DNA of 64,000 nucleotides from Grammothele lineata (Eukaryota; Basidiomycota; Agaricomycetes; Polyporales; Polyporaceae), in the NCBI GenBank assembly GCA_002150815.3, contig NDFF03000094.1:62001-126000 (forward strand). The letters are read 5' to 3'. This document shows positions 29,160 through 55,664 of this stretch, piece after piece. Every line of letters begins with the position of its first letter. Position 1 is the stretch's first letter. A model generated the notes under the pieces. That model did not search any database, was not told the DNA's origin, and saw only the letters and a list, made by a program, of their open reading frames with translations. The translations under genes were made by a program, and so were the position numbers.

Positions 29160-31831
29160 TCAGTATGGTGCGTCCCGGCTCATGTAGCCAGGCGTTTTCC
29201 CCATGCGGTAGGCCTGCTCTTGGCTGAGCGGAGTCTGCGCCATGTGCAGGAGGTGGTCCGCTTCCCGCTCGTGCCGCCTATCGCGCTCGTACGACGCCCC
29301 TGAGAGGCCTGTGGCGAGTGGCGAGTTCGACGAAGGCGACGAGGGCGACATCATCGGCGACAGCCTGTGTTGAAAGCCGACGAGCGTATCCAATCGTGTG
29401 GGCTGTATCCCGTGGCCATTTCCGGGAAGGTGGTGGCCGGACTGAGTAACCCCGTGGTGGGTGGGAGGGAGGGAATAATAGTGGCTGGGTGCAGGATGTG
29501 CGGCGTAGCCGGAACGTGTATCAGACGGTAGGGGCTGGCTGTAGTTGACGGTCTGGGCCTGGGTGTAATGCATCCCGGCAGACGGTGGCGAGGGAGAAGG
29601 GGTCATGCCCTCGTAACCAGGGGCGGCGTGTCCAAAGCCGTCGTTTCCCGATGCGGAGCCAGCTGAAGAGGATAGAAAAGGTGTATCCTCGAAGTAGTTG
29701 CCCCGACGCATGCTCGGATATGAGGCGCTGACGGGAGACGCCGAGGGCGACGGGTCGGGCTTGGTAGACGTCGACAACGTGCTCATCGCCCGGTCCTTGC
29801 GGCGACGCTGGCTGCCTCCTTCCTTTTTGGCGCGAGATCTGGCGAACCGCAGGCCGCACCTGTTCGCGACGGATCAGAGGCCAGATGAGCTATCGATGTC
29901 CGATGAATGAGATAGGAGGTCGCATGCACTCACGCGTTACACAGATCCTTCTTTCCGCTCGGGCCTTTCCGCCACTCCGGGCTTTGAGTGACCTTGCAGC
30001 TTGCACACTTGGTGATGCCTACTGGCGGGTTGCCGGCGGTGCGGCTGCTACCGCTGCTGTAAGGATCTCGGTTGTTCCTCCGTCCGGTCCTTGGTGCTGG
30101 CACGATGTCTGTAGTGGGTGAAGGTGGCGTGTCGTCCTGGTCCGGCGGTCCCGAGGCTGGGTACTGCAATCCGCCGGGGCTGGGGATCGATGGATCGACG
30201 GGGGACACTGGCGAGCTCGTCTCCATATACGATTGCGTCGTGGACCACTGGTGGTGAGCGGGCTGCGATGGGGCCGACGTCGAGAAGGACGACGACCGCA
30301 TGCTGCTGACTGGGGCTCCGTTCGGCAGCGAGCTGGGGGCCCATTGCGCGTATTGGCTTGAGTCCGAGTCCATGTTCATCCAGTTGTGGGGCGGGTACGA
30401 CGAAGACATAGGTGGCTGGGGATGTGGGCTGTAGGGGTAGGAGGCAGGAAGTGAGGAGATGTGGCTGCTGGGAGGGCCATTTGAAGGATGCGGGTCGTAG
30501 TACTGGGCGTTCCCGTGTGGCGCGTAGCTGTTCGAGTGGTAGCCTAAGGGTGGCAAGCCGCTGTTACTGACGACGTCGTTGCGGGGAGATGAGCCGATTT
30601 TGTGACACGCGAAAATAATGGCGCCTGAGGAGGCGGTACGGGTGAGGGTCCGTATCGGCCAGGCAAAACAAGGACGCATACCATGAGGAATGAATAGACT
30701 CTGCACCTCTCGCTTGTCACCCATTGAGAACTCCATGACTTGACATGATTTGTAGCGCCGGGTACAGCTTGTTTTAGCATCGGTCGCCGTGTTGGTGATC
30801 TGCACGTCCTCCGCCAGACGCGCGAAATCCTTGGATGTGGGCTCTCCCGGGCGCTCCTGTGGCCAGCTCAAGCACAACGGCCGACCGGGAGAGTTCGAGA
30901 GTATCTGAAACACGCGCGAGAGGGTCGGGGGCTGGGGCAGGGACGACTGTAGTCGGCCGAACAGAAGCTGGATCTGTTCCATACTGACGCTGGGAGTCCC
31001 GCACCAGTTCGTCCAGCGTGTTTTGTTGCGCTCGTCGTTGTCGCGTGGGTTGAGGTCGACGACTGCGTGCATGAAGCAGAGCACCAGGCCGTCCGCGGCG
31101 TAGTTGATCACCACATCGACCGCCATATAATACGCGTCCAGGGCGACCCTGTCCGCGTCCGTCCACTCCGGACCCGGCCCAGTGTACCCCAGCTCCCTGC
31201 GCACTCGCGAGAGTCGGGAATAACGCACGCTATGAGGCTTTCCTCAGCAACAGCGACTAAAGAGGTGGATGAATGCGGCGAAAAACAGGGCGTACCGAGT
31301 GACACTCCCATGCAGCGTTCTGCTATCCAACACAGCGCCGAGGTCGACCTTGGCCGACGCTTGCTCGTCAGGATGGACATAGGTGAGAAGCGATTTGCCT
31401 ATTAGCAGCTCGGCTTGCTCTCCCAAGTGGGCGGCGAGGACGGGGTCGAGATACAGAAAAGTCAGGTCGGAGGTGAGGAGGGACCAGTCTAAGACAATCA
31501 CGGTGGTCAGCGGGATCGAGACAAGGAACAGGGCTCGGGAACGAAGTTCGATCGATGAACGATCGTTGGGGAGTGCGGGGAAGAACTCACAGCAGCGCGT
31601 CTCGCCCAGCTTCGGCAAAGTGATATGCAGACGATCGGAGGGGGGAGACGGTTGCGGTGGATTAGATACCATTGAGCCGGCGGGGTATGGGGACGGCGAG
31701 AGGTCGTTATAGGACGGGAGGGGCGTGTCGGGCAGGCCTGGCGGGCCCGGCGGGCGGATGGGGGAGTGGTGGGGGACGTCGGAGTGAGAAAGGGGGTCGT
31801 AAGGGCGGGGAGAGGAGGCCAGGAAGCTCAT
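29160..31831 (-). CDS. wc-2: PAS-GATA transcription factor of the White Collar-2 type
   Basis: Partner of the blue-light receptor WC-1 in fungi, binding GATA-containing light-response elements. Exons 31831-31591, 31488-31296, 31229-30682, 30624-29934 and 29859-29160 give 790 aa. Order: Pro-rich leader; PAS domain (about 80-200) with WSLLTSDLTFLYLDPVLAAH and LLTYVHPDE; a central helical part; a long Ser/Pro/Tyr-rich linker; then the single GATA finger near residue 540 with C-X2-C-X18-C-X2-C spacing, CASCKVTQSPEWRKGPSGKK before LCNACGLRFARSRAKKEG, its last pair of Cys completed across the final intron. A Ser/Pro/His-rich tail follows. The PAS domain lacks a flavin-binding LOV cysteine motif, as expected for WC-2 rather than WC-1. 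A TATA-like AATATATT lies at 31863-31870, close to the ATG. Confidence 0.88.
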
Positions 31832-38152: not shown

Positions 38153-39190
38153 ATGTTGACCTTCAAGTTCGCGACCGTAGCGGCCCTCGTTGCACTCTTC
38201 CAGGTTACCCTCGCGCAGGACCTCAAGATCAACACTCTGTGCGTTTCCTACTCGAGCCAACTACTGATATTCGTCCGCTGACGTTCACAATTTCTAGAGC
38301 GAGTCCTGTTCAGTGCGGTTGGTGCTTCTGGCTTGCATTCATCGCTTTGGCGGGTTGGCTGATCCTATGTCAGAACCTTCGCAGTTCTCGTGGCAAGGCG
38401 GAACCCCTCCCTACTACCTCTCACTCATCCCCGGTAAGCTGTGAGTTGGAGGGTCGGACTTCTCTTGCTAATCCATAACTTCTCTAGCTGGCCAACCTGC
38501 TGCCGCAGCTGTACGTCAAGTCACTGGATGACCAATTGCATCAACTCACTATCACTTCTGTACAGCTTAAGCAGTTCCCTGTCATCCAGAACGGCCAGAG
38601 TCTGACGTGGGTGGTCGACATGCCCAGTGGCAGCACCTTGTAGGTCACCATTACATGCATGTATCGATGACCATGGATTAATCCCGTGCTCCCAGCTCGA
38701 CCATGATGCGGGACAGCACCGGAGCGCAAGCATTCTCGGACATCCAGACTGTGCAGGCTGGTCCCGATTCAAGGTTCATTTCCATCTAGCGCTTATGGCC
38801 ATGGCTTACCCTGTTATCAGCTGCCTTAACGGATCCTCGATGACGTCTATGTCGACGTCGGCGGGAACTTCTGCAACTACGTCTTCGGCGTCTTCGACCT
38901 CACACGCTGTTGCGAGCGTCAAGCAGAAGTCAGTGGAACTTGAATGCACCTTTGGAATGGACTACTAACTGAGAATGGTGCTCTACAGCGATGCGCCCAC
39001 CACCGCATCGTCCGGTGCGACTGCAACTGCGACTGCGACTAGCGCGGCCACAACCACCTCGGGTGCGACTGCAGCGAAGACTACTGACGCCGGCCCGACC
39101 AGCAGCAATGCAGCGAGCCTCCATGCGTCAGCTGGAGCCATCGGTATCGCTGGATTACTCGGTTTGGCTGGTGCTGCGCTTCTGGGTTGA
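38153..39190 (+). CDS. Secreted Ser/Thr-rich GPI-anchored surface protein
   Basis: Exons 38153-38238, 38298-38317, 38374-38433, 38488-38510, 38566-38639, 38696-38773, 38821-38928 and 38989-39190 give 216 aa. The start opens a classic signal peptide (MLTFKFATVAALVALFQVTL, cleavage near AQ). The compact N-terminal domain contains CEPSQFSWQGGTPPYYLSLI and FPVIQNGQSLTWVVDMPSG, a pattern common in Agaricomycete cell-surface proteins related to the Kre9/Knh1-like Ser-Thr-rich family. From residue 120 the chain is nearly all Ser, Thr and Ala (heavily O-mannosylated in such proteins), and it ends in a hydrophobic GPI signal, AIGIAGLLGLAGAALLG. The eight exons include pieces of 20 and 23 nt. Role in the wall is inferred. 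Confidence 0.88.
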
Positions 39191-39578: not shown

Positions 39579-42500
39579 ATGTCTGCCGCCGTCGATGAGA
39601 CAGCGCAGCCCATCGCCGTCCTCCAAGAGACCTCCGACGCGCCTCTCGCCTCTGACGTAGACGCACCGGTCGTCGCCCCCGACGCGCTCAAGCTCAAAGA
39701 AGTCTTGGCAGAGGATGAGGTTCTCCTAACAGAGAACGGTGTCGTCGACTTTGTCACGGAGGACCTCAAAGTTGAGGACGTGGTCGAGCCATCCGCTGTC
39801 GCGAATGGCTCAGTGGAGGATGGTGAGGCTGAGCCCACCCCTGCTCCGCGGGCCGAGGTGCGTCCCGTTCATCTCACACGACCAAATGGACAACAAATGA
39901 TGTATTTATGTGCTGCCACAGGTAGAGAATGCTGCTGTCGAGGAGACAGCAGTGAGCGAGACCGTGGAGGAGAGTGTCCCCGAGGTGGACGACGTTGCAG
40001 CTGGTACGTATGCATACATGTGCTGTGTGGCCACTGCTTCGGGTACTGATGCATGATGCATCACCAGTCGACGAGGCCGACGCGGCCGAGCCCGCCGCTG
40101 TCTCTGATACCGCTGCTCCCGTTGAAGATCCAGAGGTGACCCCTGCTACTGCTGCTGTGGCTGAAGAGACTGAGGTGGTCGTCCCCGAAACCGAGCCCGT
40201 CGCTCCGGCTGAGCCGTCCGAAGAGCCTGCTCCCGCTTCCGAGCCACTGGAGACTGCTTCTGCTGAGGCGGTCTCTGAGGCGGTTGAGCACGCTGAGGTC
40301 GAGGCCCCGGTCGAGGCTGAGGCTGCAGCGCCCGAGAAGGAGCCCGAGGCCGTGGACGAGGAGGCGCCCGCTGTGGAAGAAGCTTCCGTCCCCGCGGATG
40401 TCATTTCCGAAGACGTGCCTGTTGCCACTGGGGACGCCCCATCCGCCGTGGAGGAGACAGCCGCGGCAAGTGAAGAGGTTGCTGCTTCGGAAGCGGTTCC
40501 TGAGGCCGTTGAAGAGACTCCCGCTGTCGCTACTTCTGAGCCCGCGGAGGTCGAGGTCGAGGTAGTCGTTCCCGCCGAGCAACCCGAGGCGGAGGAAACT
40601 TTGGCAGAAGAGGCGCCTGTTGTGCCTGAGGCTGAAGTTTCCGTTACTGAGGACGCGCCTGCCGCTGTCGTGGAACAAGCCGAACCGGCGGAAGAAACGG
40701 CACCTGTCGAAGATACCGCTGCTCCCGCTGAAGAGCCTAGTGTGGTCGAGGAGATCGCGGCGCCTATTGAGGAAGTCTCGACCCTCGTGGAGGAGGTTCC
40801 CGCCGCCGAGGAGGCTCCTGCTCCCGTCGAAGAAGCCCGCAAACCTGAAGAGGAGGTCGTCGTGGCTACCGAGACACCTGCCGTTCAAGAGGAAACCCTC
40901 GCGCTAACCGTTGAAGAGGCTGCGCCCGTCGAAGAGGTTCCCGTCGAAGAGGAAGCGCCCGCCGCCACCGTCGAGGAAGTCGCCGCTCAGCTGGAAGATA
41001 CGTCTGCTGAGGCCGTTGAAGAAGCCGAGACGATTGTTGTGGCTGAAGAAACCCCTGCTGAGGAGACTGCTGCCCCCGCTGTCACCGAAGAGATCACTAT
41101 TGAGGCGCCTGCGGACATCGAGGAATCTCCAGCTGTTGAAGAGCCGGCCGCCACCGAAGAAGTCGCTGTCATCGAGGAACCTGCCGTCGTCGAAGACTTG
41201 ACACCGGTCGAGGATGCTACTCCTGTAGAGCCCGAGCTTGCAACTGAAACTGCCCCGGAGGAAGTCATCCTCGAGTCTGCTCCTGAACCTGTGGCGGATG
41301 CTCCCGCTGTGGAGGAGGCCACAGAAGTCGAGGCTCCCGTAGACATCCCTGCTACCGAGATTGAAGAGGCTGCACCTGCGATCCCTGAACCAGAGGCGGC
41401 CAGCGAAGACGCCGCCGTGGTAGAGGAAGCTGTTCAAGAGGAGTCTACTCTAGAGGCGACTGAAGTTACTGAAGCCGTCGAGGAGGCGCCTGCTCCTTCA
41501 GAGCCCGCAGTCGTCGAAGGGCCCATCATTTCTGAGGAGCAGATCCCGACTGAGGATGCAGTGGTTGTTGAAGAAACCCCTGAAGCGCCTGTCGAGGAAG
41601 TGTCGGCTGAGGAATCAGTCTCCGCGGCGGAAGAGGTAGCTGTTGTTGCTCAGGAGGCTGTCGTTGTCCAGGATGCACCGGTTGCAGAGGTCTCTGCCCT
41701 TGGTGTCACAGAAACTGTGGAGGATGTCCCTGTCGTCGAGACGGTGGAAGAGGTCTCTCAACCCGTCGTCGTCGAGGAAGAGCTCAGTGCGGCCTCTGCC
41801 GCCCCGGAGGCCGAGATGTCTATCGAGGAACCGGTCGCCGAGGAAACATTCGTTTCGGAGGATGTTACTGCTATTGAGCCTGAAGCCGATGCCAATATCG
41901 AGGTAACAGAGCCTGCTGAGACTGTTGTTGCTACCGAGGAACCCCTTGTCGAGGAAGAATCGGTGGTCGAGGCAGTCGAGGCGGTCGAGACGGTCACTGA
42001 GGTCGTCCCTGCGGTAGAAGAAACTACCGTCCCGGGGCCTGAGCAAGAGGCTGTCGAGGAGACTCTAGCGCAGATCGAGGTTCCTGTAGTCGCAATCGAC
42101 GCAGCTCAGGACGAGCCTGCCGAAGAAGCGGCTGTCGAGGCCGAGCCGGTAGCAGTACCTCGTAGCCCATCCACCCAGGAGCGGCCCAAGTCCCCGTGGA
42201 CTCCGTCTTACAGCGTCACTACTCAAGGCCCGGGTACGACCGTCGTTGAGGAACAAGAGATTGAGGCGCTGGAGCAGCTCCCGCCGAAGGTCGAGGAAGC
42301 TGAGGAGGTAGTCCCGACCCCCCAGGTCGAGGTCACTGCTGAGGTGAGCAATTTTGACGTATACGATCCCATAGTCACTCAGACGAACCTTCCCAGCCTG
42401 AGACAGAGGCCACAGAGCAAAGCTCTGCACCAGCGGCCGAAGTCGACCGTCCCAAGTCGCCTTCTTGGGTGCCCTCGTACTCCGTTAGCTCTCAGGGTGC

Positions 42501-44149
42501 AAGCCCCATCCACACGCCCAGCGTGCAAGCCGCCGAACTTCCTGAAGAGATCTCTGTCCCCGCAGCCGAGCCCGAACCTGAGCCCGTGGTTGAAGCTACA
42601 CCTGTCGTGGACACAGTCGAGGCCCCCGCTGAATCGGAGCCCGTTGTAGAGGTAACCACACAGCCAGAGGTCGCTACTGAAGATGTCGTCGAACAGGAGT
42701 CGGCCGTAGAGGTACCTGCTATCGTCGAACCCGAAGTCGTGGAGGACACCGCTGTTGTTCCCGAGCAGGTTACGGTTGAAGAGACTTCCGTTCCCGTGAT
42801 CACGACCGAGGAGGTGGATGCCCCCAAGGTGAGACGCGATGCCTGTCATGTTGGCGATCTGATCCTAATGTCCATCTTACAGGCTGAGGAGGAGCCCAAG
42901 ACGCAGTCTTGGGTACCCTCGTACTCGGTCAGCTCTCAGGGCTCAAGTCCTCTCCACGTGGCCCAGGAGACCTCTGCCAACGCCGACGTCGCTGAGATTG
43001 AGGCCCTGCCTGCCCCCGCGGTAGAGGTTGAAGTCCCTACAGAGCCATCTCCCATGCCAGCGGTTCTGGTTGAAGAAGCCGTCTCTGCTGAGCCTGAAGC
43101 AGAGCCCGCCCCTGCGGCTGTTGAGGAGCCCGTCATCGCCGCGCCGGTGGCCCTTGCTGCTGTGGCGCCAACTGAGCCTGAAGTGGTCCCGGAGGTCGAG
43201 GCTGAAGCTGAAGCGCCTACGCCTGTCATCGTGACTGAGACTGCGACTGAAGTGGTTGCTCCAGTATGTCACTCCCTCTAGGCTCTATCGTTCTGGTCGG
43301 TTTGCTGATCCATTGCCAGGTACCGAGAGCTGTCACTCCCAGCGTCGACGAGAGGCCCAGGTCTTGGACGCCTTCTTACTCAGTTACGCAGCAGGGTAAC
43401 AGCCCTCTCGCGAGCCCCGTGCCGCCAAAGATGGAGCTCGAGGAGGAAGAGGTACCTATGGCCACGGAGCAGCCCACCATCGTCGTCGAGGAGCCCACGG
43501 TTCCTGTAGTGGAGGTGAGTTACTAGAATCGTTCTACATGATAGGTCAGTCATCGCTTACCGGAAGATTCAGCCCGTTAACGGCGAAGTCGTCGATGCTC
43601 CTCCTTCGCGTCCTTGGACTCCGTCGTACTCGGTGACACGGCAAGGCCCTGGTTCCGATGTCGGTGCCGATGAGGAGACTCCCGCTGCTACTAACGACGA
43701 GAAGGCCGAGACCAACGGCAATGGCGTCCATACTTTCCCCACCACCGAGGAGCCTAAGGTTGCTACCAAGTGAGTGGTATAATTCCCTTTCTTAAGTTCG
43801 ATGTTCATGTGAAATCATTAGGCCCAGCCTCCTTCGCCTCGCACCCGTCGATGAGAACGAGCAGATGATCGAGGTGCCTGAGTCCGCTCCTGCTGCTGAA
43901 GTGTCCCCGACTACAGCGCGAACGCGTCACGAATCGACAACCTCCTCTCGTTTCTTCCCCGGCGGTTGGTTCTCCAGCACAACGAAGCTTCCGGAGGAGG
44001 GCCGTACGTCACTCGAGATCGCCACCGGCGAGTTCTCAAGGTCTAACTCCGAGTCGACGGCATCTCCTGCGATCGAGGCACCGGCGAATACCCCTATCGA
44101 CGGCGAATTGGACGACAAGAAGAAGCAGAAGTGGTGTGTTATCATGTAA
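39579..44149 (+). CDS. Very acidic E/V/A/P-rich protein with five WxPSYSV motifs and CVIM prenylation box
   Basis: Exons 39579-39857, 39922-40003, 40068-42343, 42397-42828, 42883-43263, 43320-43514, 43567-43769 and 43822-44149 give 1391 aa. I do not recognise a domain. Exon 3 encodes some 758 residues almost only of Glu, Val, Ala, Pro, Thr and Ser, predicted disordered and strongly acidic. Near the end of exon 3 and once in each of exons 4 to 7 there is a short motif: SPWTPSYSVTTQG, PSWVPSYSVSSQG, QSWVPSYSVSSQG, RSWTPSYSVTQQG and RPWTPSYSVTRQG. Exons 4, 5 and 6 are all multiples of three in phase 0, which fits exon duplication. The protein ends DDKKKQKWCVIM: a CaaX box with terminal Met (farnesyl type) preceded by a lysine cluster, so it is probably anchored at the inner face of the plasma membrane. 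Function is unknown; a membrane-tethered scaffold is the natural guess. Confidence 0.87.
42178..43655 (+). repeat. Five dispersed copies of a W-x-P-S-Y-S-V-x-x-Q-G motif
   Basis: Coding repeats at about 42182-42232, 42445-42510, 42898-42950, 43348-43405 and 43603-43655. Each encodes about 13 conserved residues around WTPSYSV or WVPSYSV followed by two variable residues and QG, usually after an Arg/Lys-Pro-x-Ser lead. They sit in five consecutive exons, separated by acidic linkers that are not similar beyond composition. Confidence 0.85.
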
Positions 44150-47231: not shown

Positions 47232-50042
47232 ATGCCTGGGCAACTCCTCTCCCAGCCCAATCCTCCTCCAGATCCGTCTCAGATCCCAGATTCCATCCTT
47301 GAGTATGCCATCAAGCTGAACACAAACGGCGTACTGTCCTCCGAGGAGAACTCTTCCCTTATGCAGTTCTGTCGTGCTGCAAACTACATCGCAGCTGGTT
47401 AGTCTGCGTTCTCGGCCGCGCAAGCTCACATATACTGAGTACTTATGCACTCGTAGCCATGATTTTTCTCAAGGATAACCCGCTCGTTGAGCGTGAAATC
47501 GTCTCGGAAGACATTAAGCCCCGTCTTCTTGGTCACTGGGGAACATGTCCTGGTCTCACCCTCGTCTACGCCCACATGAATCGTCTCATATGCAAGAACG
47601 GCATCGATGCTCTTTACGTCGTGGGACCGGGACATGGCGCGCCCGGCATTCTCTCATGCCTGTGGCTTGAGAACTCGCTTGGGAATTTCTATCCTAGATA
47701 CACACGCGACAAGGAGGGTCTTTCGGCCCTCATCAAGTCTTTCAGTTCACCAGGCGGTTTCCCTAGGTGTGTTTCTATGCGCATATATGCGATTACAACA
47801 CGCTCACCAAGCATATAGCCACGTCAATGCCGAGACGCCAGGTTCAATCCACGAAGGTGGTGAACTTGGTTATGCCCTCAGCGTCTCATTCGGCGCCGTT
47901 ATGGATAGGCCAGACTTGGTCTGTGTGTGCGTCGTCGGTGATGGCGAGGCCGAGTCCGGCCCTACTGCGACGTGAGCTTTCGCTCATGCTCCCTCGCTAA
48001 GACGGTTTCTGACAACTACCTAGGGCATGGCACGGTTATAAGTATATTGATCCTGCCGAGTCCGGTGCGATTCTCCCCATCGTCCACGTCAACGGCTTCA
48101 AGATCTCCGAGCGCACCATATACGGTACTATGGACGACAGGGAACTCATCGCACTGTTTACGGGGTACGGCTATCAAGTTCGTATCGTTGAGGATCTCGA
48201 GCATATCCACGACGATCTCGCAGCGAGCATGGACTGGGCGCTGTCCGAGATCAAGAAGATTCAGAATGACGCCCGAAGCGGCAAGCCCATCACCAAACCC
48301 CGTTGGCCTGTATTGATTCTGCGCACGCCCAAGGTATGTCTTGCCTTCCTGTCGATATATACATCAATCAATATACATAATGACTATAGGGCTGGTCTGG
48401 ACCCAAAGAGCTTCACGGCCAGTTTATCGAAGGCTCGTTTAAAGCGCACCAGGTGCCGCTTCCTGCAGCGAAGAAAGATGCCAATGAGCGGGAGATGCTG
48501 CAGGAATGGCTACTCTCTTATAAGCCCAAGGAGCTTTTTGGGGAGAACGGCCAACCGAATGACGCTATTCTGTCCCTGATTCCTAGGGATGAGAACAAAC
48601 GGCTCGGTATGCGCGAGGAGGCGTACAAAGCTTACACGCCGCTCAAAGTCTCCGATTGGAAGCAGTTTGGCGTGGAGAAGGGCAGTTCCAAAAGCTGCAT
48701 GGCTGTCACGGGCGAGCTGCTAGATGCTGTTGCGCAAGCGTTAGTGTCCTGTTCCTTCTTCATCCGACTGAGAGGTTCACGTAAGCCCACAGGAACCCAA
48801 GTTCATTCCGCCTTTTTTCTCCTGATGAACTGGTGTCCAACAAGCTCGATGCCGTGCTACGTCATAGTGGCCGGAACTTCCAATGGGATATCGCATCTCG
48901 TGGCAATGGTGGACGCGTCATCGAGATCCTTTCCGAACATACATGTCAAGGCATGTTGCAAGGCTACACGCTCACTGGCAGGACGGGTCTCTTCCCGAGC
49001 TACGAGGCCTTTCTAGGTATCATCCACACGATGATGGTTCAATATGCGAAGTTTGTCAAAACCGCGTACGAAGTACCCTGGCGCCAGCCCATAGGCTCTA
49101 TCAATTATGTCGAGACGAGTACATGGACGAGACAGTGAGTATATGGGTGCCTGTTTGTTAGATGGCAAGAATGAGGCTGACCAGGCCACCAGAGAGCACA
49201 ACGGGTTCTCGCACCAGAACCCGTCGTTCATCGGTGCGGTGTTGAACCTCAAGCCCGCCTCAGCGCGTGTTTATCTACCCCCCGATCCTAACTGCTTCCT
49301 GTCGACGATGGCCCATTGTCTTCGTGCGAAGAACTACGTGAACCTCATGGTTGGTAGCAAGCAACCTACCCCTGTGTGGCTGAGCCCAGAAGAGGCTGAC
49401 AGGGTGCGTTTATAAGCTTCCGCTCTAGTGTTAGCTTGCGACCCATCCCCTCAATTCCAGCATTGCATCGCGGGCGCGTCGATCTGGAAGTTCGCTTCGA
49501 CCGCCGAGGGCTTGTCTCCTGACATCGTCCTAGTCGGTATCGGGGTTGAGATGACCTTCGAGGTCATCGCCGCAGCCGTACTCCTCCGCTCCGTGCTCCC
49601 TGCGCTGCGCGTGCGCGTAGTGAACGTGACGGACCTGATGATTCTCGGCCCCCACGGCTCACACCCGCACGCGCTGAGTGACGAGGGCTTCGACTCGCTC
49701 TTCACTCCAGACAAGCCTGTGATCTTCAACTACCACGGGTACCCCGTCGAGCTTCAGGGGCTGCTCTTCGGCCGCCCGGGGCTCGGGAGGATGAAGATAA
49801 ACGGATACCGAGAGGAGGGAACGACGACGTCCCCGTTCATGATGATGTTGCTGAACGGCACGAGCCGGTATGACCTCGCGGCGGAAGCGGTCCGGCGCAC
49901 GGTGCGGTTGAATGCGAGGGTGGAGATTGACGCGCATGTCACGATCAGTCATATTATGCACCTCGCGCAGAAGGATAGGGCGTACATACTTGAGCACGGG
50001 GCGGACCCGGAGGGTACGTTTGACGTGCCGGAGTTCAAGTGA
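47232..50042 (+). CDS. xfp: Xylulose 5-phosphate / fructose 6-phosphate phosphoketolase
   Basis: Thiamin diphosphate enzyme that uses phosphate to split xylulose 5-phosphate (or fructose 6-phosphate) into acetyl phosphate and a shorter sugar phosphate. Exons 47232-47397, 47457-47766, 47819-47971, 48024-48333, 48390-48739, 48793-49134, 49193-49403 and 49461-50042 give 807 aa, the usual length. Signatures: [51 protein letters not shown], the cofactor-binding [15 protein letters not shown] (about residue 199), [12 protein letters not shown], and [12 protein letters not shown]; the C-terminal transketolase-like domain closes with [19 protein letters not shown]. The start is the first ATG, followed by a 40-residue leader typical of the family. 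No residue appears missing. Confidence 0.97.
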
Positions 50043-50418: not shown

Positions 50419-53400
50419 CTACTTGCGACGCCTGAGCGAGCCGAGAAGGCTACCTGTGCGAACGCGGAACATGTACGTGAAGATGTAAACGCATACGATC
50501 TAATAGAAAGGACAGTCAGCAACGCGCCCTCGAGCGATGAACGGAAGGGAAAAAATCTCACGTTGAAGGCGACAAAGGCCACGAAGATGCCAAAATCGCG
50601 CCAGTGGTTGTCGTAGAAGATGTTGAACGTGTTGCCGAGGAACGCGTCCGTCGTCGCGAACGAGCAGTACTGGCACGCGCTCGTCGCGTTCGGGTTCGTG
50701 AGGTACCCGCCCGCGCTTGCGATGTACGGCTCCATGTATTGGGAGCACGTCTGCCCCGAGGGAGGGGTGATGGAGACGTACTCGACGGCGGAGCACTGGA
50801 TTTCTGTGCGTCCGATCGCTTGGCCGAGGAGTGCTTCCACGAGGTAGGTGTACGGCGAGAGGTGGTACATCCAGCGCCACCAGCCGAGGAGGCTGAAGGG
50901 CTGCAGGACGCCGTTGCTGTATGTAGCGTGTCAGCTAAAAGTAGGACGAACATAGCACGAACACATACAAAGTAAGCACGAATGAAAAGAGGAAGCTGAA
51001 GAGGAGCGCGGCTATCTCCGCATTCGGAGCCATCGCTGCAACAGCCTACGAAGGAACGAAATGCCTTAGCGTTCGTACAATGAACAGTATACATTGCGAT
51101 GCCCATACCTGTCCGATGGACGTGTAGTAAAGCGGAAGGATAACGCCCATGACCAAGTATGTGAAGCCGGCGCGCGACGTGGGGAAGCCGACGGTCCAGT
51201 ACCAGCAGAGGAAATAGAGCGACGCGCCAACGATGTTCCACGGGATCTCAACGAGGATTTGGGACGTAACAAGAGCGGTCCAGCTGTACATCCTGCTGTG
51301 GCGCTCGCGCACCTCGTAGATCTTGCGCATGTCTATGAACTTGACCTGAAGCTGGTTCGCGATGGCGACGCTGATCATCAGAGACATGAAGATCGCCTGA
51401 GCGCACGTTGTTATCATAATGAAAAGATCTTTGCAGAGAAGGAAGCTTACAAAAAGGTGGTTCTGAGTGCCTTGGATGGTCGTCTTGGCTTGGTAGAATG
51501 AGAAGCCGATGAGGAGGGCACCGCCGATGTTAAGCCCAATCTTGGATAACAAATAGGTCGGGTCTCGCCAGTGAGCCTCAGCGTCGCGCTTGGCGAGAAG
51601 ACCCAACTGATACTGCCATGACGTAGGGAAGTCGCTCTTGAACCGCGATACCACTGGGGGCTTGCTCCGACCTTCGGCATGAATCGCTTCCAGTTCGTCC
51701 TGAACCTGTGTTGCTTCGGGAGAGACCTTCCACGCTGCATGCCAGTCGATGTCCGTAGAGGCAGTCGCCCCCGCGCCGATAGCCTCGAGAATGTACTCAG
51801 CGCTACATGATATTCGTCAGTTTTCCAGACGAAACCATTCTAACTCAATACGCACGGGTTCTCGGCGTCACCGCACTTTCGCGCGCCGTTACGTTCGAAG
51901 TAGTCGATGAGCATGTTGGACCTTTCACCGATGTCGCCGAAGTACACAGTCTGTCCACCCTTGCGGAGAAGCAGCAGCCGATCGAACACCTGGAAGAGCT
52001 CAGCAGACGGCTGGTGGATCGTGCACACGATCGCCTGCCCGCTGTCGGCCAGCTCGCGGAGGAAGCTCGTAATCGCCCATGCGCTTTGGGAGTCAAGCCC
52101 GGACGTTGGCTCGTCAAGGAAGATGAGCGACGGCTTCGCAACGAGCTCGACGGCGATGGTGGTGCGCTTCCGGTGCTCAACGCCGAGCGAGCCGACGATA
52201 GCGTCGCCATAGGATTCAAGACCACACATCTTCAGGACGGTCTCGACGCTGCATGAGGGTGGAGTTAACACGACAATCTTCCTAGCGCTCTATCAGGAGG
52301 GTACGTACTAAGCCTTCTTCTCGTCGAACGGCACGGACTGCGGTTGACGAAGGGATGCTGAGAAGAGTAATGCCTCGCGAACCGTGGACGTCGGTAGGTG
52401 AGTGTCCATCTGCTGGCAGTATCCACTGTAGAATGTATGACACGGCATCAGCACAGGACGGGGAGTTTACGACATTCTGCAGTACTCACGTATGAGCCTG
52501 GAAATCGCTCGGGAGCGGATGCCCGTTCATGAACCTGTCTCCAGTGACTACGCCGCCCGTCGTACGCTCCGCGAGCACGTTGAGAAGCGTTGTCTTGCCT
52601 GCACCTGACTCGCCCATGAGAGCAGTCAGCTTTCCGGGACGCACGTAACCTGAGACATCGTCTAGGAGCTTGCGAGTGCCCTTGTCAACCGGAACGACGT
52701 ATTGCAAGTGCTGGAAAGAGAACACTTCGCCTGCAGCCGTCGCAGCGAGTCCCTGAGTAGCGCTTCCGTTCTCGGCACGTCCAACGCGGGAGGTTTCGTT
52801 GCGGCCCTTCTCCTCGTCCGCTACGCCTTCCTTTTCGGCGGCGGCGACAGCGTCAGATTTGGAACCGCGCTTGAAAAGCATGACGCTCGTGTCACCAGCC
52901 AGGCTTTGATTGAACTCAGTGAGGATGAGGAGAACGGAAATGAAGCCGACCGCGAAGGCGCAGACGATCCCGAAATTCTGTGAGTCGTAAATCGTCAAAA
53001 AGTATGGATTTAAGTGGGGTGGTATACGCACCCGCCACAAATGGGAGTGTGAGTAGTTGTATGCCAGCGACAGGTAGTCGGACCCCGCGACCGTGAGCGA
53101 GCCGGGTACCGAACCGACTGTCGAACACACTTGGTTCTCGAGCGATACGTTGGCGTACGCGGGTCCTTGCGGGACAAGCGTGGCACACTCGGCGTTGATG
53201 TTGTAGAACTCGTTGGCCATCATCGCTTCAAATCCGTAACGCAGGGGCTATGTGGAGATCAGAGACGTGGGGAGAAAGTTCAGCGTCACCACTCACGTTT
53301 ATGTAGATGATCCACTTCAGCGCCCCGATCATGTAAGGCTGCGGCAGCGAATAGCCGGTATAGAGGATGAGGATCAAAGTACTGAGACCAGCGACGGCTG

Positions 53401-55664
53401 TAGCAGGAGCAGGGCTCTTGAATGCAGCGGCGAGAGTACGGAACCAAGCCTTCATCGTGATCGTGCTGACGAAAGAGAGAAGGAGGAACGTACTGCAGAA
53501 CCAGTTAGCCTCCAAATCAAAGACCAGTCTGATTGATCATGCTCACAAGAATTGTCCAGCGGTTGCTTGCAGCCCAACAAGAAAGTAGATGACCACACCG
53601 AACACGACCTGTGTCAGGAGCGAGATCGGCACATCCACGAGCGTGAGGGCGAGCGACTCGACGAATGGGTGATACATCGCCGCGCGCGACTGCCGGTGAA
53701 CGATCGGCCGCTGCGAGAACAACGCTGGAATCTCTGCCATAGTCGACAGCGCGGCGAACAACAACGCGAAGAAAAGCACGCCTCCCCGAGAGAAGAAGGT
53801 GGCGGTGTTGTTCGCAAGACGGAGGAAGACAGTGCCCATGATGATTGCCTGGAGCACAAACGAGGCGAGCTGGATGGCCTGTGCGGTCATGTCGCCCCGG
53901 AGGATCTGTACTCTGCGGCGCATGAGCGCACGCGCCTGCATCGGGATCGAGACGATGTATGGGCTCTTGGGGTTCGTTCGCTTGGCGTGTTCGGCGCGAA
54001 CGCTCTGCTTGTAGTACGTCACGCGCTCGGGCTTGCCGACGAAGTGCTCCTGGTAGGCGGCCATGTCCACTCGGTTGAGCTGCGCAAGCTCAGAGTTGCG
54101 CCAGTGCGCGACGAATTCATCGGCGGTGCGTGGAACGCGGTGCTCATACCCCTGGCGGACGATGCGACCGTTAGGGTCGGTGACTAGAGGACGTGTCAAT
54201 AAGTAAACCCATCCGAAGACCGCGGTCGGCACACGTACCTGCGACGAGGAAGTCCGCGGTCGTCTGTCGGTTGGCAGGCTCGTAACCCATATCGATGAAG
54301 TACTGTCTGGCTCGGTTCGCGGGGCCGAAGTACACTTGCTTGCCCTCATAGATGACGCAGACTTTATCGAAGGTCTCGTACAATTGTTCTCCGGCTTGGT
54401 AAATTGCAACAATGGTAGACTGACGGCCAATGTCGGTGGAGATTCGGAGGGCTTGAACGAACTCAAGAGCGGTGGACGCGCTGATGGTGCGAGGTTAGCA
54501 AGAAAACGGAGGATATTAAATCAAGGTACGCACTCCAGACCGCGAGTAGAGTTGTCCCAGGACATCAGAAGCCCACGAGTGACCAGTGCCTCGCCAATAG
54601 AAACACGCTTCTTCTCACCACCCGAGACGCCACGGACTGCGGCATCTCCAACGAGCGTATTCTTGACGTGCCGGAGGCCAAAGACCGTTTGTATCACTTC
54701 TGTAATCTGGGAGATATGTTGCTCGCGCGACATGTCGTCGATCCGCTGACGGGGTGTCCGCGTCTCCGCTGCGAAGCGGAGCGTCTGGTCAACTGTTAGG
54801 GTGGGGAAGTGAACGTCGTCCTCCGGACAGTACTGCACGTCCCCGCGGTAGTGGGCTTCAATTTGCTCTGGGGGAAGCGAGTCGTACCAGACCTCGCCCT
54901 CGACTTTATGGAACTCGTGGCGCTGGTTGGCAAGCACCTTCAGGAGGGTACTACATCCGGCACCGGGGCGTCCGAGCACCACTACATTCGCGATAGCGAG
55001 TCTTAAGCCTTCGAGTTACAAAGACAAAGGAAATTACTTACAAAGCATCTCTCCTGGCTGAACGACCCCCTCGAACCCACTCAGAATGTCGCGCGTGGTG
55101 GGATGCAGTTGGTCCCGAAAGGATTTGAGGAGGTTGAGGGGGTTGAGCACAGAGCTGAGGGTAGGCTGATACGATGCGGATGCACCCAGCCCAACAACGC
55201 GAAGGTCCTTGAAAACGACTCCGAGTTCCCTCCGCTTGATATCGGACTCGTCGAGTCTAGACAGACCGTTGAGGATCAACGCAAGAAAGCAGCGGTTTGA
55301 ACTCTACGTACCGTTTGATGACATGCCTGAGTGTCTTCTCGAGGTCAAATGGCCCTTCGTCGAAGGCGATAGTAGTGTCGGAGGCGGTAGAGTGAACGGT
55401 TCCCCGCTGGCCGCCTTGTGACTGCCTCGACAAGGTCCTGCGAAGAATCTCGACGCCCGCCGGGTCGAAAAATCCTATATCGACATGCGAGCCAGAAGAA
55501 AGCTGTCGAGAGAGCGGTGCGCCGCGCGTGTCATGAACGGGAGAAGTCTTGTTTGCAGGATCCGTAGAATGACGGTGGTTGAACGAGGCAAGGTCTGTAG
55601 CGGTTGGCAGCTCTGGGACGTTGTCCTGATTCTCGGAGGATTCTAGTTGAGAAGTGCTGGTCAT
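50419..55664 (-). CDS. PDR-type (ABCG full-length) drug efflux transporter
   Basis: Plasma-membrane ATP-driven exporter of azoles and other hydrophobic compounds. Fifteen exons (55664-55312, 55256-55042, 54981-54534, 54480-54239, 54183-53547, 53492-53297, 53247-53032, 52977-52490, 52425-52309, 52248-51856, 51802-51451, 51396-51109, 51045-50969, 50916-50562, 50499-50419) give 1485 aa in the order NBD1-TMD1-NBD2-TMD2. NBD1 has [11 protein letters not shown], with Cys in place of the Walker A Lys, plus [11 protein letters not shown] and [14 protein letters not shown]2 has normal [11 protein letters not shown] and [10 protein letters not shown] but a divergent signature (GVEHRKR). This asymmetry is standard in fungal PDR pumps. 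TMD2 ends in a loop with many Cys and a last helix before GSLRRRK. The next gene on the same strand is an aromatic monooxygenase. Confidence 0.96.

Follow-up and report, generated by a model that had tools for sequence, protein, structure and literature searches.

A predicted farnesylated, disordered membrane scaffold with a repeated W-x-x-S-[YF]-x-V-x-x-Q-G motif in Grammothele lineata and other Agaricomycetes

In a 64,000-nucleotide (nt) stretch of the Grammothele lineata genome (contig NDFF03000094.1, positions 62,001 to 126,000; hereafter the window), we analyzed a predicted eight-exon gene whose product probably acts as a farnesylated, cytoplasmic, intrinsically disordered multivalent membrane scaffold; we put the probability of this reading at roughly 0.6. 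It is based on a short repeated motif found in 89 of 90 relatives, a cysteine at the fourth position from the end in 82 of them, the contrast in conservation between these elements and the surrounding chain, the acidity of the whole family, matches to prenyltransferase subunits in the genome, and the turnover of motif copy number.

The gene was read from the sequence with seven GT-AG introns of 52 to 64 nt, and the spliced frame comprises 1,389 codons and a stop. Splicing and translation of 39579-44149 confirmed the product described by the original prediction, with its eight exons, acidic chain, five motif copies, and an end reading KKKQKW-CVIM. The N terminus (MSAAVDETAQ) aligned with MSVAVEEPAQ of Trametes punicea, and this match, together with the conserved C terminus of the relatives, supports the predicted start and end. 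The features are given below; each motif copy was located by translation and by a DNA-pattern match.

39579..44149, + strand: whole coding gene, 8 exons, GT-AG introns, single open frame of 1,389 amino acids, N and C termini matching relatives
39579-39857, 39922-40003, 40068-42343, 42397-42828, 42883-43263, 43320-43514, 43573-43769, 43822-44149, + strand: exons 1 to 8
39579..42196, + strand: motif-free acidic N-terminal stretch rich in Glu, Val, Ala and Pro, spanning about 830 residues from exon 1 through most of exon 3, defined by composition
42197..42229, + strand: motif 1, WTPSYSVTTQG (exon 3)
42466..42498, + strand: motif 2, WVPSYSVSSQG (exon 4)
42910..42942, + strand: motif 3, WVPSYSVSSQG (exon 5)
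43365..43397, + strand: motif 4, WTPSYSVTQQG (exon 6)
43615..43647, + strand: motif 5, WTPSYSVTRQG (exon 7)
43913..44029, + strand: conserved C-terminal block, residues 1312-1350 (TARTRHESTTSSRFFPGGWFSSTTKLPEEGRTSLEIATG), from column conservation and patterns in relatives
44117..44134, + strand: KKKQKW, a short basic run preceding the Cys, its Trp being the conserved residue, from tail comparison
44135..44149, + strand: CaaX box CVIM and stop codon, from translation and from CxxM in 81 of 90 relatives

The five copies share the pattern W-[TV]-P-S-Y-S-V-x-x-Q-G, with their tryptophans at W831, W903, W1033, W1166, and W1230. As had been proposed, exons 3 to 7 carry one copy each, and exons 4 to 6 are symmetric, with phase 0 at both ends. 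The motif starts 23, 9, 15, and 14 residues into exons 4, 5, 6, and 7, respectively, while the exon 3 copy has its Trp 49 residues ahead of the exon end. The motif peptide is RPKSPWTPSYSVTTQGPG; a separate peptide is ESTTSSRFFPGGWFSS. The earlier description of five identical 13-residue sites had to be revised: the copies are near-identical, varying at positions 1, 7, and 8 and in the flanks, and their shared core spans 11 residues. The string W.PSYSV occurred in none of 20,000 shuffles of the protein, which, together with the recovery of 90 relatives, argues that the motif is not due to chance. A degenerate DNA pattern for W-x-P-S-Y-S-V, searched as exact matches in unspliced DNA, was found at seven places in the 41.8-Mb genome; five are the window copies, and the other two translate as WFPTYTV and WTPRYRV. 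No second locus resembling the last two exons was found in this genome (252 contigs) at E <= 0.001.

The relatives were collected by protein searches that depend on shared five-residue words and fixed length limits; they returned 61, 26, and 11 proteins, which amount to 90 relatives once duplicates are merged. Those named to species all come from Agaricomycetes, belonging to orders that we take to be Polyporales, Agaricales, Boletales, Atheliales, Gloeophyllales, Jaapiales, and Thelephorales (three lineages looked up), and the best-scoring named ones are polypores (Cerioporus, Trametes). No relative outside Agaricomycetes appeared at a relaxed E <= 10 for lengths of about 430 to 1,360 residues, although the word and length limits leave absence elsewhere unproven, and none named Schizophyllum commune or Coprinopsis cinerea was among the matches listed. 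The relatives are labeled in databases as hypothetical or uncharacterized protein, zonadhesin, or trichoplein; we regard the last two labels as spurious.

At least one copy of the motif (W.P[ST][YF][ST]) was present in every relative except P0063, a 203-residue protein that kept the C-terminal block and CVIM. To define the core, we compared 354 distinct motif windows picked by W..S[YF].[VIAFT], a pattern that partly fixes positions 0, 3, 4, and 6 by choice. Pro2 was kept in 319 of them, Ser5 in 328, Val6 in 333, Gln9 in 299, and Gly10 in 314; of the 35 windows missing Pro2, 23 retained V6 and QG. On the basis of these counts, including the Pro-less windows, we read the motif core as W-x-x-S-[YF]-x-V-x-x-Q-G, often preceded by R-P-K-S-P. 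Among 58 long proteins (at least 1,100 residues with a Met start; 57 relatives and the window protein), the number of intact copies ranged from 1 to 9 and was most often 3 to 5, many proteins having decayed copies alongside. A recurrent variant, WTPSFQVTT[VI]G or near, forms an early copy in P0034, P0037, P0038, P0051, P0055, P0057, and others (Agaricales), and may mark a second binding specificity.

The chain that carries these motifs is strongly acidic. The window protein has a net charge of about -317, with 25.3% acidic and 2.5% basic residues; Glu (21.7%), Ala (16.7%), Val (16.0%), and Pro (12.2%) make up 66.6% of it. It contains one Cys, seven Trp, five Tyr, and seven Phe, and five of the Trp, all five Tyr, and none of the Phe lie inside motif copies; one of the two remaining Trp is found in FFPGGWFSS and the other immediately before CVIM. 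The same acidity is seen across the 58 long proteins (median net charge -319, range -407 to -138), whose motif-free N-terminal stretch has a median length of 1,037 residues (range 118 to 1,480). A Pfam search of the window protein gave no family at E <= 1, and hence no GTPase domain, a PDB sequence search gave no match, and no membrane span was evident, the highest 19-residue Kyte-Doolittle mean being 1.46, at residue 1101. AlphaFold2 predicted no structure and no helix for exon 8 (predicted local distance difference test score, pLDDT, 57; predicted template modeling score, pTM, 0.11; alignment of 22 rows). P0065, comprising two motifs and the C-terminal block, likewise showed no structure (pLDDT 50, pTM 0.15; 29 rows), which speaks against the motif and block folding together.

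That block is a third conserved element, overlooked by the original prediction. Its commonest form is R-x-R-L-E-S-T-T-S-S-R-F-F-P-G-G-W-F-S-S, followed by RTSL and GEF. The pattern [FYL]PG[GA]W was found in 81 of the 90 relatives, and 87 had a loosened form of it (P[GS][GASR][WFY][FVL] within the last 200 residues). When the window protein was aligned globally with seven polypore relatives, its motif cores kept 47 to 51 of 55 residues in six of the seven (19 in Grifola) and its block 25 to 32 of 39, while the acidic stretch kept 228 to 256 of 705, a figure for which the biased composition accounts for much.

The window protein ends in CVIM, which has the features of a farnesyl-type CaaX box (Cys at -4, aliphatic residues, and a final Met, Ser, Gln, Ala, Cys, or Phe). 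Besides the CxxM given above, WCxxM was seen in 75 relatives, and C[AVILMTSG][VIL][MSQACF] was matched by 79. We consider the eight relatives without Cys at -4 to be partial or doubtful models: P0060 and P0082 have a C terminus resembling a wrong gene model; P0068, P0071, and P0075 are open frames that do not reach the last exon; P0078, listed as partial, is one residue short; and P0088 and P0089, the latter listed as partial, break off early. Several relatives on contigs barely exceeding the frame look like spliced transcripts (P0026, 1,859 residues on 5,813 bases; P0039, 1,774 residues on 5,722 bases), which would support the CaaX end at the transcript level. In the genome, three places match the prenyltransferase beta-subunit family and three match alpha-subunit repeats. 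The motif, the C-terminal block, and CxxM occurred together in 74 of 90 relatives under strict patterns, and the motif and the Cys-4 box in 81. As orthologues lacking both of the latter had been named as the outcome that would count against the original prediction, it came through this comparison intact.

It had also likened the end of the protein to the K-Ras4B membrane anchor. The CVIM box is indeed identical and lysines stand just upstream, but the lysine-cluster part of the analogy is weak. The tail of K-Ras4B is strongly polybasic, whereas across 82 tail sequences (81 of the first 87 relatives and the window protein), the ten residues before the Cys contained on average 3.6 basic and 2.7 acidic residues, and never more than five basic ones (four basic and three acidic in the window protein). 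In addition, the family has a conserved Trp directly before the Cys and lacks a GTPase domain. Thus, the end does not qualify as a polybasic anchor of the K-Ras4B type.

In the mechanism we propose, the C-terminal CVIM would be farnesylated, trimmed, and methylated, as expected from the box and the CaaX rules, under which Met in the X position favors farnesyltransferase. The farnesyl group and the small patch of Trp and basic residues would seat the C terminus on the membrane, from which a polyanionic chain of about 1,380 residues, as its composition suggests, may reach into the cytosol. The W-x-x-S-[YF]-x-V-x-x-Q-G peptides could then dock multiple copies of one partner by avidity, provided that they share a single partner, and the conserved SRFFPGGWFSS block, close to the membrane, might form a second, separate contact. 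From the membrane outward, the order would be the lipid end, the block, the docking peptides across several hundred residues, and the long polyanionic chain. The earlier picture of a flexible tether with five identical docking sites at the membrane therefore survives in part: co-occurrence of motif and Cys-4 box supports a protein that is probably lipidated and disordered and carries several copies of one site, whereas the identity of the copies was not borne out.

Several observations weigh against the scaffold reading. An acidic residue, ill suited to a classical CaaX, stands inside the box of three relatives (CDVM once, CEIM twice), and another relative ends in CVIF. Because the C terminus is weakly basic, one farnesyl may give merely transient membrane binding. 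Both AlphaFold2 alignments were shallow, and the low confidence of the predictions is therefore weak proof of disorder. Last, Grifola frondosa P0009 has a single intact motif and its 19 of 55 core residues, which could reflect either a gene-model error or a genuine loss of docking sites. In this protein, the C-terminal block (31 of 39 residues) and a CVVM end are intact.

To see how the number of copies changes, we compared, with the core masked, the sequences flanking 182 intact or altered copies from 31 proteins (the window protein and 30 of the 90 relatives, hand-picked for spread). The best match lay within the same protein for 58 copies and in another species for 124. Window copies 1, 2, and 5 paired with the first, second, and last copies of Trametes punicea, while copies 3 and 4 had weaker best matches, in other species; T. 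punicea has two additional decayed copies, PKSTPWIASSSQG and KSPQSPSTPSYSVTQQG. In Crucibulum and Athelia, copies recur with units of 56 to 57 and 40 residues, respectively, which looks like tandem duplication. Exon structure in relatives was read indirectly, from open frames that enter or cross introns (P0071, P0068, P0075). The start of P0071, whose best match is the window protein, resembles the tail of intron 4, and its frame, which ends at intron 7, stays open across insertions of 51 and 54 nt where introns 5 and 6 would lie. Thus, with introns at the places of introns 4 to 7, P0071 seems to share the exon layout of the window gene. In contrast, P0068 (seven intact copies) and P0075 (seven intact and one altered) hold their copies in single open frames without intron-like insertions. 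Growth of the motif number by exon duplication, as the original prediction suggested, is therefore possible in the window lineage but not a general rule, in line with the tandem-like repeats of Crucibulum and Athelia. The best reading of these sequences is that copy number shifts by duplication and decay while the motif peptide stays nearly constant.

The composition itself suggests another role, in which the charged chain serves as an entropic bristle on the membrane, a polymer brush or sticker-and-spacer system whose Trp/Tyr motifs self-associate or form condensates. The length of the protein, the near restriction of Trp and Tyr to the motif, and the absence of predicted structure all fit this idea. 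Stickers, however, usually tolerate swaps among aromatics and neighbors, whereas Tyr4, Ser5, Val6, Gln9, and Gly10 are almost invariant (positions 0, 3, 4, and 6 partly through the search pattern), and at least one gene model (P0009) has just one intact copy; we therefore consider it unlikely. Two known docking peptides resemble the motif in being short linear motifs of disordered proteins with similar local spacing, yet in both cases the defining residues are absent. If P-S-Y-S-V-[TSHN] were a PxIxIT-like site, the protein could hold calcineurin at the membrane in the manner of AKAP79. The P-x-hydrophobic-x-V spacing agrees, with T, S, H, or N next in 310 of 354 motif windows, but the strict pattern, P-x-[ILVF]-x-[ILVF]-[TSHDEQNKR], was found in only 11, all via Phe, the other 343 having Tyr, as do all five window copies, none of which fits. 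Moreover, the Pro-less windows that retain V6 and QG are at odds with such a site, and W0, S5, Q9, and G10 fall outside it. Although PxIxIT sites also occur in scaffolds such as AKAP79, according to PMC3582496, we regard this explanation as highly improbable. The same low standing applies to a variant PY motif, [TVI]-P-x-Y, that would recruit an Rsp5-type ubiquitin ligase to the membrane through WW domains. This form is present in 304 of 354 windows, and three strong WW domains, the number found in Rsp5, are encoded by one open frame of the genome. The PY pattern proper is [PL]-P-x-Y, however, and neither PPxY nor LPxY occurs in any of the 354; Pro is lost in 35, and W, V6, and QG would be superfluous.

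A further possibility, also improbable in our view, is that the protein does in Agaricomycetes what Woronin-body tethers do in ascomycetes, serving as a septal leash by which an organelle or the septal pore cap is attached to the membrane. The named relatives all belong to Agaricomycetes, the group that possesses septal pore caps. Pore-cap proteins are among the orthogroups without known motifs, according to PMC8893723. Leashins are giant membrane-attached ascomycete tethers, and septal-pore proteins are often disordered and in several cases lineage-specific, according to PMC5345055 and PMC10023807. In contrast, Lah, as described there, is anchored by a transmembrane segment and has a predicted coiled coil, whereas the hydropathy maximum given above places the window protein outside the leashin/Lah type. 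The disordered regions of ascomycete septal-pore proteins are, in the same sources, biased toward Arg and His, unlike the 2.5% basic residues found here, and the term CaaX has no occurrence in PMC10023807, on septal-pore disordered proteins. A mushroom-specific setting enters differently in an extension of the scaffold reading that we offer tentatively: W-x-x-S-Y-S-V-x-x-Q-G might represent a docking word of a new class, read by a dedicated Agaricomycete protein and shown in one to nine copies on a membrane leash, its valency evolving by duplication and decay, possibly in dolipore/septal or cortical machinery.

Among known systems, the nearest functional analogue of the proposed scaffold, and an analogue only, would be the paralemmins (vertebrate PALM1-3). 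In PMC3405040 and PMC11887803, these are described as partly disordered proteins of the cytoplasm that carry a CaaX lipid anchor at the C terminus and, in a variable chain, short motifs of high conservation, and the paralemmin motif is linked to the spectrin cytoskeleton; of the lipid anchor, the family studied here shares the box. Paralemmins differ in having a single motif of 11 other residues, a Cys cluster, and di-palmitoylation, whereas here we found one to nine intact W..SYSV..QG copies, Trp rather than Cys before the box, and exclusively fungal named relatives. With no Pfam family at E <= 1, the window protein does not group with paralemmins, a comparison that involved no direct alignment. 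Basidiomycete mating pheromone precursors are short CaaX peptide precursors, to which a 1,389-residue protein does not correspond. Published titles on CaaX in Agaricomycetes concerned mating-type loci for the most part, and the one lead followed from them, Snowball/SNB1, was dropped: in PMC10949477, it is a predicted seven-transmembrane protein, and CaaX is mentioned once, for methyltransferase genes.

Searches on the motif, the C-terminal words, CaaX, septal topics, and zonadhesin, covering little of the subscription literature, found no published description of the family. A disordered scaffold with a lipid anchor is not in itself a new kind of protein, but as far as these searches reach, neither the motif nor the block nor the family has been described. 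For this family, present in several orders of fungi that form mushrooms, we found no paper, and it lacks both a domain model and a structure. Its motif is nearly fixed while the surrounding chain drifts, which suggests a specific partner under strong selection; one peptide could be enough to isolate such a partner. The natural series with one to nine intact copies also offers a handle on how valency evolves in disordered membrane tethers.

Other genes in the window were noted as well. Directly upstream of the scaffold gene (38969-39190, + strand), the sequence encodes the final part of a protein rich in Thr, Ala, and Ser, whose C terminus is hydrophobic (SLHASAGAIGIAGLLGLAGAALLG) and which looks like a GPI-anchored surface protein. 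Downstream, acetate kinase (PF00871; 45057-46650, - strand) and phosphoketolase (47232-50042, + strand; XFP C-terminal domain PF09363 at 49416-50042) stand head to head with about 0.6 kb between their likely starts, judged by eye, an example of a divergent xfp-ack pair from a fungus. Membrane segments of the ABC-2 transporter type occur in two open frames (51046-51816 and 53543-54520, within 51046-54520, - strand), which come from one or two ABC transporter genes. At 29930-31243 (- strand), the frame of a GATA zinc-finger protein covers 25 of 36 profile positions and ends inside the finger, probably where an exon stops.

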